DNA of 64,000 nucleotides from Salegentibacter sp. (GTDB lineage Bacteria > Bacteroidota > Bacteroidia > Flavobacteriales > Flavobacteriaceae). The DNA lies in NCBI GenBank assembly GCA_024635795.1, contig JAGXIH010000017.1, forward strand, positions 310,001 to 374,000, in the 5' to 3' direction. A model generated the notes under the pieces. It saw nothing but the letters and a program-made list of their open reading frames with translations. It did not search any database and was not told the DNA's origin. Below are positions 8,731 to 21,159 of this stretch, piece after piece (position 1 is the first letter of the stretch; each line of letters starts with the position of its first letter). The translations under genes and the position numbers were made by a program.

Positions 8731-9162
8731 ATGAATAAGAAAAAACAACTTAAGTTCGATAAAGCTTATTTAAGAATAGCCCGGGAATGGAGTAAACTTT
8801 CTCACTGCACTCGCAAACAGGTTGGCGCACTTATTGTTAAAGATAGGATGATAATCTCTGATGGCTATAACGGAACTCCCAGCGGTTTTGAAAACTATTG
8901 TGAAGATGACGAAGGATACACCAAATGGTATGTTTTACACGCTGAAGCCAATGCTATATTAAAAGTAGCAGGCTCTACCCAATCCTGCCAGGGTGCTACC
9001 TTGTATATTACAATGTCTCCGTGTAAAGAGTGCAGTAAGCTTATTCACCAGTCGGGAATTACCCGCCTTGTGTACCATATTGATTACAAAGACAACTCAG
9101 GACTTGAGTTTTTAAGCAAAGCAGGGGTTGAACTTGAACAAATAAACGATCTGGAAGATTGA
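8731..9162 (+). CDS. Deoxycytidylate (dCMP) deaminase family protein
   Basis: 143 residues, close to the usual length. It has the zinc site of cytidine/deoxycytidylate deaminases: HAEANAI (His70, catalytic Glu72) and SPCKEC (Cys98, Cys101). The extra YNGTPSGFENYC segment is typical of dCMP deaminase (ComEB type), which converts dCMP to dUMP for thymidylate synthesis. The stop codon overlaps the TTG start of the following S41 protease, so the two genes are probably translated together. The pairing with a protease has no obvious metabolic meaning. Confidence 0.92.
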   Translation: MNKKKQLKFDKAYLRIAREWSKLSHCTRKQVGALIVKDRMIISDGYNGTPSGFENYCEDDEGYTKWYVLHAEANAILKVAGSTQSCQGATLYITMSPCKECSKLIHQSGITRLVYHIDYKDNSGLEFLSKAGVELEQINDLED

Positions 9163-15686: not shown

Positions 15687-16262
15687 ATGTTTCAGATAAA
15701 GAAGACCATAGTTTCAGAAGAGATCCTCAATAAAGATTTTGTCTGTAATCTTTCAGCCTGTAAAGGGGCCTGTTGTGTAGACGGAGAGGCCGGCGCCCCG
15801 GTAGAACCGGAGGAACGGGAAATTATGGAAGAGATTTATCCAAAGGTGAAGCCTTTTCTTAGACCTGAAGGCGTAGCGGCTATCGAAGCTCAGGGAACCT
15901 ATATTACCACAGAAAACGGCGAACTCGAAACCCCACTTATCGATGGAGCCGACTGTGCTTATGTTACTTTCGACGATAAAGGCATTGCCCTTTGTGGCAT
16001 TGAGAAAGCCCATAACGAAAGACTTATTAATTTTAAAAAACCTGTTTCCTGCCATCTTTACCCGGTAAGAGTACAGGATTATTCCAGTTTTTCTGCTGTA
16101 AATTATCATCACTGGCATATTTGTGATGATGCCTGTAGTTTGGGAAAAGAGCTCCAGGTGCCGGTTTATAAATTCACAAAAGATGCCCTGATCAGGAAAT
16201 TTGGAGAAGACTGGTACAGGGAACTCGAAGAAACTGTGCAGCAAATTCAGAAGGAAAAATAG
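15687..16262 (+). CDS. DUF3109-family cysteine-rich protein
   Basis: 191 residues. Cysteines cluster in four groups: FVCNLSACKGACC near the N-terminus, DCAYVTFDDKGIALCGI in the middle, PVSCHLYPVRV and HICDDACSLG. This pattern defines the DUF3109 family and resembles the YkgJ/Fe-S cluster-binding proteins, so a metal or Fe-S centre is likely but the reaction is unknown. Cytosolic, no signal peptide. Single gene between a strong palindromic terminator and the next gene. The start is set by the first cysteines and the close -7 element. Confidence 0.85.
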   Translation: MFQIKKTIVSEEILNKDFVCNLSACKGACCVDGEAGAPVEPEEREIMEEIYPKVKPFLRPEGVAAIEAQGTYITTENGELETPLIDGADCAYVTFDDKGIALCGIEKAHNERLINFKKPVSCHLYPVRVQDYSSFSAVNYHHWHICDDACSLGKELQVPVYKFTKDALIRKFGEDWYRELEETVQQIQKEK

Positions 16263-16459
16263 CACCTAAAGCGCTATTTTTCAGCATTATATTTTATTAT
16301 TCTGAAGTATTTTCTTATCTTCAAACTTCAATTTACGCCCCAAAATAAACCGGATCTCCCTAATTCGGTACTTAAATAGCCTTACATTATTTTCCATTTT
16401 GCCCCTATCCGTAAGCTTAAAGGTTTACAATCTATTTTATAATCTAAAATTTAAAAATT

Positions 16460-17284
16460 ATGAAAAAACTAATCTTACTGGGGTTCTCACTTCTATTTTG
16501 TGTTTCCACTATGGAGGCCCAGTTTTTAAAAAAATTAAAGGAAAAAGTTGAAAAAAAGGTTGAACACGTGGTAACCGAAAACATTTCAGATAAGGCGGCG
16601 CAAGAAGCCGAAAAATCCCTTAATAAAATGTGGGAGACCGACTTAAAGAACAGTCCGATCCCAATGGGTGCCAATCGCGTAGATATCAGTGAAGTTCCGC
16701 AATCTTATGATTTTAACTGGGAATACCAGTTAAATATGGAAACTAAAGAGGGGAACGTTGATATGACCTATCTTTTAAAAGAAGATGCACCCTATTTTGG
16801 GATGCGTATGCCTCAAGCCGAAGGTATGTTTATGATCCTGGATATGGATAGAAAACTTAGTATAATGTATTTCGGTTCCGGCGAAAATAATTTTATAACC
16901 GCCAGCAAAATAGATGATCTTACCAATCCTGAAGACGAAACAAATCCTTATGAAAATGCAGAATTAAAGAAAATTGGCACGAAAAACATCCTGGGCTACG
17001 AATGCCAGGGCTATGAAACCGAAACCGAAGAACACAAGTTCACCTTCTATGTCACCCAGGAAGCACCTATTAGTTTTGCAAATATGTATAGTTATGAAAA
17101 AAGCAATATCCCAAAGGGCTGGAATGCTGACTGGCTGGAAGACGGTGATGCTTTAATGATGGAAATGCAAATGATAGACAAGAAAAACCCTAACCGAAAT
17201 GCGAATATGCGTTGTACCGGGTTGGAGAAAAAATCTTTTACAATAAATAAGGAAAACTATGCCGCCCTGGGTGCGGCCAAATAA
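16460..17284 (+). CDS. Secreted DUF4412-like protein
   Basis: 274 residues with a signal peptide (cleaved near TMEAQ), an N-terminal amphipathic helix rich in Lys and Glu (LKKLKEKVEKKVEHVV), then a strand-rich domain containing LGYECQGYETE, a motif of DUF4412-like proteins. Its function is unknown. It is the first of three rightward genes at 16460-18393 separated by 12 and 5 bases, so they probably form an operon. Confidence 0.65.
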   Translation: MKKLILLGFSLLFCVSTMEAQFLKKLKEKVEKKVEHVVTENISDKAAQEAEKSLNKMWETDLKNSPIPMGANRVDISEVPQSYDFNWEYQLNMETKEGNVDMTYLLKEDAPYFGMRMPQAEGMFMILDMDRKLSIMYFGSGENNFITASKIDDLTNPEDETNPYENAELKKIGTKNILGYECQGYETETEEHKFTFYVTQEAPISFANMYSYEKSNIPKGWNADWLEDGDALMMEMQMIDKKNPNRNANMRCTGLEKKSFTINKENYAALGAAK

Positions 17285-17296
17285 AGACCTGGAATC

Positions 17297-17650
17297 ATGG
17301 AAAATACAAACACACAAACCAACGAAGCTAAAGGCACTTTTGATCCTAAAACTATCGCCATTATTGCTTATTTAACCGTAATTGGACTAGTGGTAGCTTT
17401 TGTTTTGAATAACGATAAAAAAGATGAATTTGCCGCTTTTCATATTAAACAATCCCTGGGGCTTGTATTAATTAGCCTGGGACTTTTCATTATAGGAATG
17501 ATTCCTATTTTAGGTTGGATATTAAGTTTCCTCGGCTCAATTTTCCTATTGTATTTATGGATTATGGGACTCATTAATGCGATTAACCACAAAACTAAAC
17601 CGGTTCCCATTCTTGGGCAACAGTTTGAAAAGTGGTTTGCCAATATTTAG
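17297..17650 (+). CDS. DUF4870-like small membrane protein
   Basis: 117 residues. After a polar N-terminus there are three to four membrane helices with the family pattern IAIIAYLTVIGLVVAF, FAAFHIKQSLGL and LLYLWIMGLINAI. Members are widespread and lack a defined role; some are annotated as import components without strong evidence. Middle gene of the three-gene run. Confidence 0.8.
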   Translation: MENTNTQTNEAKGTFDPKTIAIIAYLTVIGLVVAFVLNNDKKDEFAAFHIKQSLGLVLISLGLFIIGMIPILGWILSFLGSIFLLYLWIMGLINAINHKTKPVPILGQQFEKWFANI

Positions 17651-18393: not shown

Positions 18394-18562
18394 TACAACA
18401 TTTTTTATTAATCCCCGATAAGGGAAACTAGGGAAATTATTTGGGGTTTTAACATTTGTTTTATTACCCACTTTTCAACATTCTTAATTTAATTGCATCG
18501 ATACAACTGCTATAATGGGAGTTCCAATCTGCTTAAAATTAACTTTTTGTGTTGAAAACTTT

Positions 18563-18579
18563 GTTGACAACGTTTAAAC
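18563..18579. promoter_or_regulatory. Adjacent short palindromes upstream of the R2-like gene
   Basis: GTTG-A-CAAC (18563-18571) directly abuts GTTTAAAC (18572-18579). A related GTTCACAAC/GTTGTGAAC pair forms the arms of the larger inverted repeat at 18614-18652. The recurrence of a GTTnACAAC word within 90 bases before the start suggests an operator. Confidence 0.35.
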
Positions 18580-18656: not shown

Positions 18657-19604
18657 ATGTCAAAACCCCTACAGGAAACCACATTGAAAGACGATAAAAA
18701 TCGTTTCATCATTTTCCCTGTTAAACATAACGATATTTGGGATTGGTATAAAAAAATGGAGTCCCGTTTCTGGACAACCCATACCGATATTGCCGACCAT
18801 AAACTGGAAATAAAAGACCAAAAGTTAAACACCAACGAGGTCCATTTCCTTAGAAATCTAATGGCCTTCCTGGCCGGTTCCCAAAACTTATCAACCCAGA
18901 ATATTACCCGAAAACTTAACGGAGATATACCGGAAGCAAACTTTTGTTTTGATTTCCAGACAGTTTCAGAAAATGTTCACCTGGCAAGCTTTTCAATGCT
19001 AACCCGCGCATTCCTAAACCGTCCAAAAACTGAAGAGCGGCTTTTTTCTGAAATTAATCCGCAGCTTAAAATTGTTGAAAATCGCATCAAAAAATGGACA
19101 AGTTCAGGTTCTCTGGCTGAAGCCCTGGTTGCTTCAGCTGCCTTGAATGCAATTTTCTTTCCGGCAGCACTTTCTTCTCTTTTATGGCTTAAAAAACGTA
19201 AAGATCTTTCAGGATTGAACTATTATTGTGAACTCATTTCACGTGATAAAGCCTATCACCGTGACCTTGCAATAAATTTCTATTCAGAAAAGATCAAAAA
19301 AAATATTTCTTCTGAAAAAATAAGGGAGATCATCCTGGAAACAGAAAAATTAATCGGGGATTTCCTCTTAGAAAGTTTACCGGTTAATCTAATAGGGATG
19401 CCCGTTGAACATATGGAGCAATACCTAAAATTGCTTAGCGATAATCTTTTTGAAAAATTAGATTGTACAAATAGTATAGAAGAAACTCCTGCTCAAACAA
19501 ACAAACGCCTAAGCCTGGCCGAACAACGTGTAGGCAAGTTCCAACAGGCAGGACGAAAAATAGATGACGATTCTGATAAAATCAGTTTTAGAACTGATTT
19601 GTAA
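18657..19604 (+). CDS. Ribonucleotide reductase R2-like protein lacking catalytic residues
   Basis: 315 residues, clearly homologous to class Ia NrdB (DIWDWYKKME, SENVH, LIGM, ELISRD). Aligned by motif and by spacing to E. coli R2: ligand Asp84 is Ile45 here, Glu115 is Glu105, His118 is His108, radical Tyr122 is Phe112, Glu204 is Asn164 (AALNAIFF), Glu238 is Lys198 (RDKAYH) and His241 is His201. The radical-transfer tyrosine near the C-terminus (EYQKAG in relatives) is Phe295 (KFQQAG). Yet the end KISFRTDL still resembles the flavobacterial R1-docking tail. It therefore should not form a di-iron tyrosyl radical; a regulatory or decoy role on R1 is inferred. No nrdA lies nearby. Confidence 0.85.
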   Translation: MSKPLQETTLKDDKNRFIIFPVKHNDIWDWYKKMESRFWTTHTDIADHKLEIKDQKLNTNEVHFLRNLMAFLAGSQNLSTQNITRKLNGDIPEANFCFDFQTVSENVHLASFSMLTRAFLNRPKTEERLFSEINPQLKIVENRIKKWTSSGSLAEALVASAALNAIFFPAALSSLLWLKKRKDLSGLNYYCELISRDKAYHRDLAINFYSEKIKKNISSEKIREIILETEKLIGDFLLESLPVNLIGMPVEHMEQYLKLLSDNLFEKLDCTNSIEETPAQTNKRLSLAEQRVGKFQQAGRKIDDDSDKISFRTDL

Positions 19605-19606
19605 AG

Positions 19607-19648
19607 CCTCAAAAACGCTACGACCCCCAACGTAGCGTTTTTTGAGCT
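19607..19648 (+). terminator. Strong intrinsic terminator
   Basis: Arms around AAAAACGCTACG and CGTAGCGTTTTT (19611-19622 and 19631-19642), extended by CTC/GAG, close an eight-base loop and are followed by T-rich sequence. It ends the R2-like transcript and separates it from dgt. Confidence 0.88.
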
Positions 19649-19809
19649 TTTATTAAAACACCCCCGGTTTTTATTTTAATCAGAGCATTTCCCTAACCTC
19701 ATACCTTTCAAAACAATCGAAAATAAGAACTAATTCCCGCTCCGGAAGTCTTTGGAATTATTATTTTTGACCTGACTGTGCAACCTACGCAACCCAAATA
19801 CCAACACAA

Positions 19810-21159
19810 ATGATGAACTGGGAACAACTTCTCTCCTTAAAACGTTTTGGAGACACCAATAAACGCCTTAGAAAAGAACAAAATGAAACCCGGCTGGGCT
19901 TCGAGGTAGATTATGATCGTATAATCTTCTCTTCTGCTTTTAGGAGCTTACAGGATAAAACCCAGGTTATCCCCCTTTCCAAAACCGATTTTGTTCATAC
20001 CCGACTTACTCACAGCCTGGAAGTTTCGGTGGTAGGTCGTTCCCTGGGGCGCCTGGCCGGACAGAAAATCCTGGAGAAGCACCCGCATCTGGAAACAATA
20101 CACGGGTATCGCATGAATGATTTTGGTGCTATCGTAGCGGCGGCGGCATTGGCGCATGATATCGGAAATCCGCCTTTTGGACATTCTGGAGAAAAAGCCA
20201 TTGGTGAATATTTTAGTCATGGTAAAGGGAAGCGCTTTAAAGCACAACTTTCAGAGAAAGAATATCGAGATTTGGTAAAATTTGAAGGGAATGCCAATGG
20301 TTTTAAAATTCTAACCGAAACCAGACCGGGAATTCCTGGCGGGCTCCGGCTTTCTTATGCAACTCTGGGAGCCTTCACCAAATATCCTAAAGAGTCCCTT
20401 CCGCATAAACCCACATCTAATATTGCCGATAAGAAGTTTGGTTTTTTCCAGTTGCAATGCGACAGCTTTCAGGAGGTGGTCAAGGAATTAGGTCTAATTC
20501 AAACAGGGAAAAATGGAAATTTGGGTTATGCGAGACATCCATTGGCATTTTTGGTAGAAGCGGCCGATGATATTTGCTATACCATCATCGATTTTGAGGA
20601 CGGCATCAATTTAGGGCTCATAGATGAAGACTATGCACTGGAGTACCTTATAAAATTAGTTAAGAACAATATTAACACCCAGAAATACAATACACTCCAA
20701 AATACATCAGACAGGCTTGCCTATTTACGGGCACTGGCAATAAACACTCTTATCTCTGAAGCTGTAGAGACCTTTTTGCAAAATGAAGAGGCTATCCTGG
20801 AAGGAAATTTCCACCATGCTTTATTTGATAAAAGCGGTTATGAAGCCCAGATCAAAGACATCATAAAAATAAGCATCGAGCGCATTTACCAGAGCGAAGA
20901 GGTGATCAACAAAGAAATCGCCGGCTATAAGATGCTCTCATATCTTCTGGACACATATACCAAAGCTTTATTACCGACACAGGAGGAAGAGAGTTCTAAT
21001 TTCAACAAACTCGTATTAAAATCGGTGCCTAAACTTCAGCATCTGCAGGATGAAACCTCGGTATATAAAGTCCTAATGGAAATATGTTCCTATACCGCAT
21101 CCCTTACCGACGGATTAACCGTGGCCTCTTTTGAAAGATATAAAGGTTTAAGTTTATAG
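19810..21159 (+). CDS. dgt: Deoxyguanosinetriphosphate triphosphohydrolase (dGTPase)
   Basis: 449 residues with the HD-domain signature of the family: HTRLTHSLEV (His63, His68), then AHDIGNPPFGHSGE (His116-Asp117) and a later LVEAADDICY. These coordinate the metal for hydrolysis of dNTP to deoxynucleoside plus triphosphate. The length fits type-1/2 dGTPases. Two ATGs in a row (19810 and 19813) are equally likely starts. TATTTTTG at 19762-19769 may be the -7 element. Its position after the R2-like gene places two dNTP-pool proteins side by side, although each seems to have its own transcript. Confidence 0.93.
   Translation: MMNWEQLLSLKRFGDTNKRLRKEQNETRLGFEVDYDRIIFSSAFRSLQDKTQVIPLSKTDFVHTRLTHSLEVSVVGRSLGRLAGQKILEKHPHLETIHGYRMNDFGAIVAAAALAHDIGNPPFGHSGEKAIGEYFSHGKGKRFKAQLSEKEYRDLVKFEGNANGFKILTETRPGIPGGLRLSYATLGAFTKYPKESLPHKPTSNIADKKFGFFQLQCDSFQEVVKELGLIQTGKNGNLGYARHPLAFLVEAADDICYTIIDFEDGINLGLIDEDYALEYLIKLVKNNINTQKYNTLQNTSDRLAYLRALAINTLISEAVETFLQNEEAILEGNFHHALFDKSGYEAQIKDIIKISIERIYQSEEVINKEIAGYKMLSYLLDTYTKALLPTQEEESSNFNKLVLKSVPKLQHLQDETSVYKVLMEICSYTASLTDGLTVASFERYKGLSL

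Follow-up and report, generated by a model that had tools for sequence, protein, structure and literature searches.

An nrdB gene without nrdA

The window, a 64 kb stretch of DNA, comes from a 1.98 Mb assembly (G000, 61.6% complete) of the marine genus Salegentibacter, its nearest named records being Salegentibacter flavus (90%) and S. sediminis (87%). At 18657–19604 on the forward strand it holds an intact open frame encoding a full-length, 315-residue homologue of the ribonucleotide reductase subunit R2, which lies among the following features:

15687–17650, + strand: genes for DUF3109, DUF4412 and a small membrane protein (weak TctB/DUF4870 matches, below cut-off), the upstream anchors of synteny (Pfam, synteny)
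18550–18571, + strand: tandem element TGTTGAAAAC-NN-TGTTGAAAAC (1 mismatch), located 107 bp ahead of the start codon and in the same place as upstream of canonical nrdB in near genera
18657–19604, + strand: orphan R2-like gene (nrdB without nrdA), 315 aa (open reading frame, Pfam, relatives of solved structure, synteny)
19605–19809, no strand: intergenic gap in place of the nrdA of relatives (about 820 aa), without a trace of nrdA by tblastn (synteny, tblastn)
19810–21159, + strand: dGTPase gene, ancestral downstream neighbour of nrdA (synteny)

The orphan belongs to the R2 family, PF00268 matching at 151.7 bits against a Pfam cut-off of 33.6, and among solved structures it matches R2 proteins of the eukaryote type, human RRM2 best (E 1.7e-48); read in the opposite direction, the same stretch contains many stops. 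Structure prediction against R2, a check proposed in the original prediction, gave an AlphaFold model from 26 alignment rows with a mean pLDDT of 59 (below 50 in residues 1–54 and most of 275–315), for which the 50 Foldseek matches listed are all R2 proteins, the first again human RRM2 (TM 0.64, rmsd 7.9). The R2 fold is supported by this model, in which core geometry is not visible at such a mean pLDDT. A search for viral relatives returned none, and no RNA family reached its gathering score between window positions 9000 and 30000.

The gene order DUF3109, nrdB, nrdA, dGTPase is found in Christiangramia, Salinimicrobium and Gillisia, and in Gillisia limnaea (L014) the DUF4412 and small membrane-protein genes also lie in between, an arrangement that the window resembles with nrdA taken away. 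Across 78 canonical NrdB loci an NrdA-like frame is present in 77 and a dGTPase gene in 64, counted within the flanks fetched, some of which are short; one record titled Candidatus Nitrotoga (L021), which carries a flavobacterial-type nrdB, is probably a misbinned contig. Our survey of 15 Salegentibacter genomes (S. flavus being G001 and S. sediminis G003) found the orphan in 13, the frame open at every one of these loci, with DUF3109 upstream and dGTPase downstream in all 13 (the window and 12 further loci); 12 orphan loci also have DUF4412, and 11 the gene for the small membrane protein. Canonical NrdA left no trace by tblastn at the orphan loci, the one strong match (L163) being a short NrdA elsewhere in genome G010. 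The orphan is the ancestral class I nrdB that remained after nrdA was deleted from between nrdB and the dGTPase gene, an event that would most simply be placed in the ancestor of Salegentibacter. Gene order also makes it an orphaned orthologue of canonical nrdB and not, as had been proposed, a paralogue beside a working NrdB.

Phylogeny recovers the orphans as one clade, with SH-aLRT support of 99 when outgroups are included and 88 (not starred) when they are left out. In the free tree they lie among canonical NrdB, yet not beside the near genera, a distance we blame on long branches; a grouping of orphans with near genera is not rejected (p-AU 0.663) and is 6 log units better than the free tree.

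At up to 3 mismatches the tandem element matches once in the 64 kb (0.02 expected by shuffles), and the same stringency gives 29 matches in the 966,204 bp of the 78 canonical loci, these lying one per locus, upstream of nrdB, in 29 loci (28 from Christiangramia/Gramella, Salinimicrobium and Gillisia, plus L018). Its first half is kept in all 13 orphans. These fall into two forms, and in form B (the window, S. flavus and S. sediminis) the whole element is present within 1 mismatch in 3/3; among the ten genomes of form A, all of which retain the first half, it is found with 3 mismatches or fewer in four, with 4 mismatches in four and not at all in two, the second half being mostly eroded. The element was not found at L127–L129, L201, L202, L204, L205 and L212, and 14 of 15 NrdJ loci lack it, the remaining one (L121) giving a single match at the mismatch limit. 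Each half-site may resemble a DnaA box, and the shared position points to the element being a putative ancestral control linked to nrd that the orphan has retained.

Metal ligands, radical path and docking tail

Residues were compared with those of 91 canonical flavobacterial NrdB rows, none of which varies at the metal ligands or at Tyr122, using the E. coli R2 numbering (Asp84, Glu115, Tyr122, Glu238 and so forth). The alignment, together with a comparison to class Ie for the lysine, places these sites in the window:

18882–18884, + strand: Gln76 codon (CAA) at the Asp84 ligand site
18969–18980, + strand: Glu105 and His108, the kept Glu115 and His118 ligand sites
18990–18992, + strand: Phe112 at the radical Tyr122 site
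19146–19148, + strand: Asn164 at the Glu204 ligand site
19248–19250, + strand: Lys198 at the Glu238 ligand site, the position of the class Ie lysine
19257–19259, + strand: His201, the kept His241 ligand site
19539–19541, + strand: Phe295 at the radical-transfer Tyr356 site
19578–19601, + strand: tail KISFRTDL, homologous to the docking tail KISFDADF of relatives but altered

The six ligand sites of the window protein read Q, E, H, N, K, H, where all 91 canonical rows have D, E, H, E, E, H; Glu115, His118 and His241 are kept, as are Trp48, Arg236 and Asp237. Much of what had been read from the window sequence at the outset agrees with this comparison. The ligand spacing had been quoted as exact, and it is (+3 and +7 for E105/H108/F112, +34 and +37 for N164/K198/H201), the changes of Glu204 to Asn, Glu238 to Lys and Tyr122 to Phe stand against the invariant rows, and that of the C-terminal radical-transfer Tyr to Phe stands against three canonical loci. 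The proposed change of Asp84 to Ile was a misreading, the site being Gln76, and the tail said to be still recognisable is indeed homologous to KISFDADF, but its DADF end has gone.

The two forms differ at several of these sites. Form B has Q, E, H or Y, F122, N, K, H, the His118 site being Tyr in S. flavus and S. sediminis, and form A has E, E, H, Y122, K, K, H. A phylogeny had been suggested as a means of finding whether a clade conserves the same substitutions: Lys occupies the Glu238 site in 13/13 orphans of both forms, and Phe122 and Asn204 are restricted to form B, Tyr122 being kept in 10/10 form A rows and lost in 3/3 of form B. Tyr356 has been lost in 12 of the 13 orphans (G004 keeps it) and the DADF end is changed in all of them. 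Following a variable linker, the tail KISFDADF of canonical NrdB is mostly KISK[KN]TD(L) in form A and KISF[RK]TDL in form B; since the tails are alike among the orphans after this linker, they fit a short motif that now binds a different target.

Protein identity is 86–91% within form B and 64–89% within form A, and that to five canonical rows is 35–41% (35–38% for form B alone). Between the forms it falls to 32–38%, as against 83–86% for the dGTPase next door. Canonical NrdB has 218 columns in which at least 95% of rows share one residue, and 66 of these are kept in all form A rows, 84 in all form B rows and 45 in both, the best-kept stretch being residues 1–42 (13/25 columns) and the poorly kept ones 64–84 (0/19) and 274–315 (2/25). 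Of the canonical-invariant columns, 25 are changed and fixed in both forms, only 8 of them to the same residue, so that shared derived residues are modest in number.

Summed over the six sites, with one row each, acidic and basic residues give −4 for canonical NrdB, 0 for forms A and B, −1 for a separate Salinimicrobium orphan (G269) and, from quoted residues, 0 for class Ie. Class Ie R2 proteins (the QSK and VPK NrdF, metal-free with a DOPA radical) share with the orphan the Lys at Glu238, the neutral core and a non-acidic residue in place of Glu204. Excerpts of PMC11846895 give the residues of the QSK R2 of B. vaginale as D112, Q143, H146, S203, K237 and H240, with the ammonium of K237 at the Mn1 place. 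Class Ie, however, keeps Asp84 and replaces Glu115, whereas the orphan has lost Asp84 and kept Glu115, and the Tyr that class Ie converts to DOPA is Phe112 in the window protein and remains Tyr in form A. In further contrast to class Ie, the orphan is not of NrdF type and has no cognate R1, and NrdI was found in none of the 15 Salegentibacter genomes by a search that did detect it in the genomes used as controls (E. coli, B. subtilis and L. lactis). Class Ic R2, described in excerpts of PMC3824934 as having a Mn/Fe site and a C-terminal Tyr, shares the Phe at the radical site but has intact ligands, three of which the orphan has lost. With the canonical NrdB of Christiangramia, Salinimicrobium and Gillisia the orphan has in common its locus, fold family, Trp48, Asp237 and upstream element, and it differs from them in lacking an adjoining nrdA, in the loss of three ligands and both tyrosines and in its changed tail end.

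Ribonucleotide reductases of the genus

The best PF02867 scores in the 15 Salegentibacter genomes, 313–323 bits, belong to NrdJ, as measured against canonical NrdA at 737 bits in G021 and 728 in G420; by these scores a cognate canonical NrdA was found in 0/15 genomes, the window assembly among them being 61.6% complete. Class II NrdJ, which needs no R2, is present in 15/15, both by PF02867 score and in a search with the protein of the window genome, whose 851 residues NCBIfam names as NrdJ (TIGR02504, 571 bits, cut-off 400). NrdD (class III) was found in none of the 15. A short NrdA is present in 13 (not found in G000 and G003), the 562-residue protein of G005 being named NrdE-prime by NCBIfam (739 bits, cut-off 602), and the same 13 genomes carry a second type of R2, the NrdB of this short pair (frames of 328–361 codons), which ends in TADDLF or TANDLF and sits on a far branch of R2. 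The genome search for canonical nrdA and nrdB proposed with the original prediction has therefore yielded no cognate NrdA and, in most genomes, a separate short pair. From its length, which lacks that of an ATP-cone, we would guess that the pair belongs to the NrdAi/NrdBi subclass; these names are from PMC5794259, excerpts of which report that one flavobacterium combines a class II enzyme with an NrdAi/NrdBi pair, a set-up that most Salegentibacter resemble. In G010 a second short-type NrdB (G010:C1:11430-12098, L163) lies beside a second short NrdA and contains two in-frame stops, and is a broken duplicate.

S. sediminis, listed as 100% complete in about 20 contigs, yielded neither a class I NrdA nor any R2 besides the orphan, and the only reductase found in it is NrdJ. 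The original prediction had held that a genome with no other nrdB, where this protein must be the working R2, would count against it; such a genome does arise here, but the only reductase found in it is of class II. If NrdJ is indeed its sole reductase, S. sediminis would be expected to rely entirely on vitamin B12 to make DNA.

These surveys bear on how the orphan could act. Regulation of R1 through competition by a protein that still docks, as had been proposed, is unlikely because the cognate R1 has gone, being found in none of the 15 genomes; the docking end is moreover changed in every orphan, and S. sediminis keeps the gene with no class I NrdA found. Docking could instead be on the surviving short NrdA, or the orphan could serve as a beta-prime to the short-pair NrdB, tuning that enzyme, and the presence of both short subunits in 13 genomes would provide the opportunity. 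There are precedents in yeast Rnr4 and apicomplexan R2_e2 (PfR4), R2 folds that, like the orphan, have lost diiron or radical residues, and that act with R1 and an active R2 according to excerpts of PMC3824934. Nevertheless, in S. sediminis, whose orphan lineage is still constrained by our hand arithmetic, neither short subunit and no other R2 was found, the short-pair NrdB sits far away in the R2 tree and none of the 13 orphans has an unaltered docking end, and we regard this reading as very unlikely. Most improbable of all, in our view, is a metal-free radical subunit like that of class Ie which drives the short NrdA, a reading that would apply best to form A, where Tyr122 stands beside Glu84 and Lys238. 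The lysine position, the neutral core and the Tyr122 kept in all form A rows are what such a subunit would show, yet NrdI was found in none of the 15 genomes, Tyr122 is missing from all of form B and Tyr356 from all orphans but that of G004, no class I NrdA was found in S. sediminis, and the short NrdA has an NrdB of its own with another tail ending.

Selection, a second orphan and a putative metal-free scaffold

Pairwise Nei-Gojobori dN/dS values of the orphan are 0.122, 0.136 and 0.173 for the three form B pairs and average 0.137 over 45 form A pairs, rising to 0.31 between the forms (18 of 30 pairs unsaturated); for the S. sediminis lineage alone we obtain about 0.15, worked by hand from the three form B pairs. 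The neighbours give 0.034–0.039 (dGTPase), 0.064–0.066 (dxs), 0.048–0.087 (DUF3109) and, for DUF4412, 0.061 in A and 0.115 in B, the latter near the value of the orphan, while canonical nrdB gives 0.019 from the 13 of 45 pairs that are unsaturated. Constraint on the orphan is about 4 times weaker than on dGTPase and 7 times weaker than on canonical nrdB as measured by those 13 pairs. Among form B genomes dS is 0.30–0.54, roughly 0.15–0.27 per lineage, and when neutral evolution was simulated, indels not included, an open frame survived in 12, 5 and 0 of 1000 sequences at 0.15, 0.2 and 0.3 substitutions per site. Together the dN/dS values and the simulation place the orphan under purifying selection, weaker than that on most of its neighbours. 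The loss of a metal and radical site in a gene that is retained, as originally described, is thus borne out, with the residues changed, dN/dS at 0.12–0.17 in the clade of the window and the frame open in 13/13.

In two genomes, G006 and G010, the orphan has gone from between the same neighbours, and it is therefore dispensable. In the species tree G006 is sister to the ten genomes of form A (support 100/99) and G010, weakly, to the clade of the window (80/60), positions from which it was probably lost twice. Such losses, and the divergence of the two forms next to a well-conserved dGTPase, are what one would expect of a slowly decaying relic without function, an nrdB that drifts after the loss of nrdA and will disappear. 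We consider this rather unlikely, given a dN/dS of 0.12–0.17 and no stop at any of the 13 loci, when drift leaves few or no frames open, and a Lys238 that is fixed in all 13.

A second case is found in G269, a congener of Salinimicrobium catena (G021) with a one-contig, 100% complete genome, in which nrdB lies directly before dGTPase and nrdA has gone (L212). NrdJ and short NrdA are present there and canonical NrdA was not found. The sites read H, E, H, Y122, E, K, Q, with Tyr356 changed to Phe and both His241 and the tail end lost, and dN to nine canonical congeners is 0.24–0.28, compared with 0.025 among those nine; the 12 genomes of its genus comprise these 9 with canonical-score NrdB, this 1 orphan and 2 without a match (74 and 75% complete). 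G269 has lost nrdA independently and has undergone the same change of Glu238 to Lys. Because GAA to AAA is a single transition, this recurrence is weak evidence of selection, and the G269 copy, which has also lost the upstream element along with its tail end, looks more like decay, as the relic reading would have it.

For the Salegentibacter gene we consider it on balance probable, from sequence comparison, that an ancestral nrdB was orphaned and now encodes an R2 pseudoenzyme without metal, retained as a scaffold whose tail has been re-targeted. Once nrdA was deleted from between nrdB and dGTPase, nrdB would have stayed. With three of six ligands, Tyr122 and Tyr356 gone from the sequence of the window protein, its product would be no radical source by the known route, and radical delivery along the known path would not be possible without Tyr122, Tyr356, the DADF end and a cognate R1. 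Its core is charge-neutral (Gln, Glu, His, Asn, Lys, His) and has Lys198 where the class Ie lysine replaces Mn1; most likely this allows a metal-free helix bundle to fold, the lysine replacing a metal cation in holding the bundle together. As the gene is under purifying selection and retains the ancestral upstream element, its product is most likely such a scaffold, one that would act in dNTP metabolism by binding a partner protein with the altered tail. NrdJ is a tentative candidate for this partner, guessed from its presence in all 15 genomes. A bolder version, that the R2 fold has left class I altogether as a lysine-for-metal scaffold, its tail re-aimed from NrdA to another partner, perhaps to NrdJ as a second class II subunit, seems unlikely; we know of no precedent for a second protein subunit of a class II reductase.

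Rnr4 and other pseudoenzymes of the R2 family have been interpreted as assisting an active R2 and R1. In S. sediminis, by contrast, an R2 relative under selection persists although neither was found in the genome, and help of that kind cannot explain its function. The lysine swap at Glu238, seen in two separate orphanings and in class Ie, suggests a testable route to metal-free R2 folds in which metal loss comes first and any chemistry follows. Salegentibacter forms a natural series, from nrdA lost through nrdB kept in two forms to nrdB lost, with an independent repeat in a neighbouring genus. Among open-licence PMC papers, judged by titles and opening lines, we found no orphan R2 kept without R1 and no study of a Salegentibacter reductase.

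Outside the genus, an orphan profile run on 397 genomes of the family matched 297, scoring 496–502 bits for the 3 Salegentibacter in that draw and 348 bits at best for another genus, a screen that altered-ligand orphans with ordinary scores would escape. The six weakest matches beyond Salegentibacter, with residues read in L206–L209, comprise the second orphan of G269, canonical ligands in G280 and G341, a piece with canonical ligands but without the N-terminal part in G189, and short pieces in G109 and G085. S. catena carries adjacent short fragments of a second R1 and a second R2 (G021:C5:112079-112560).
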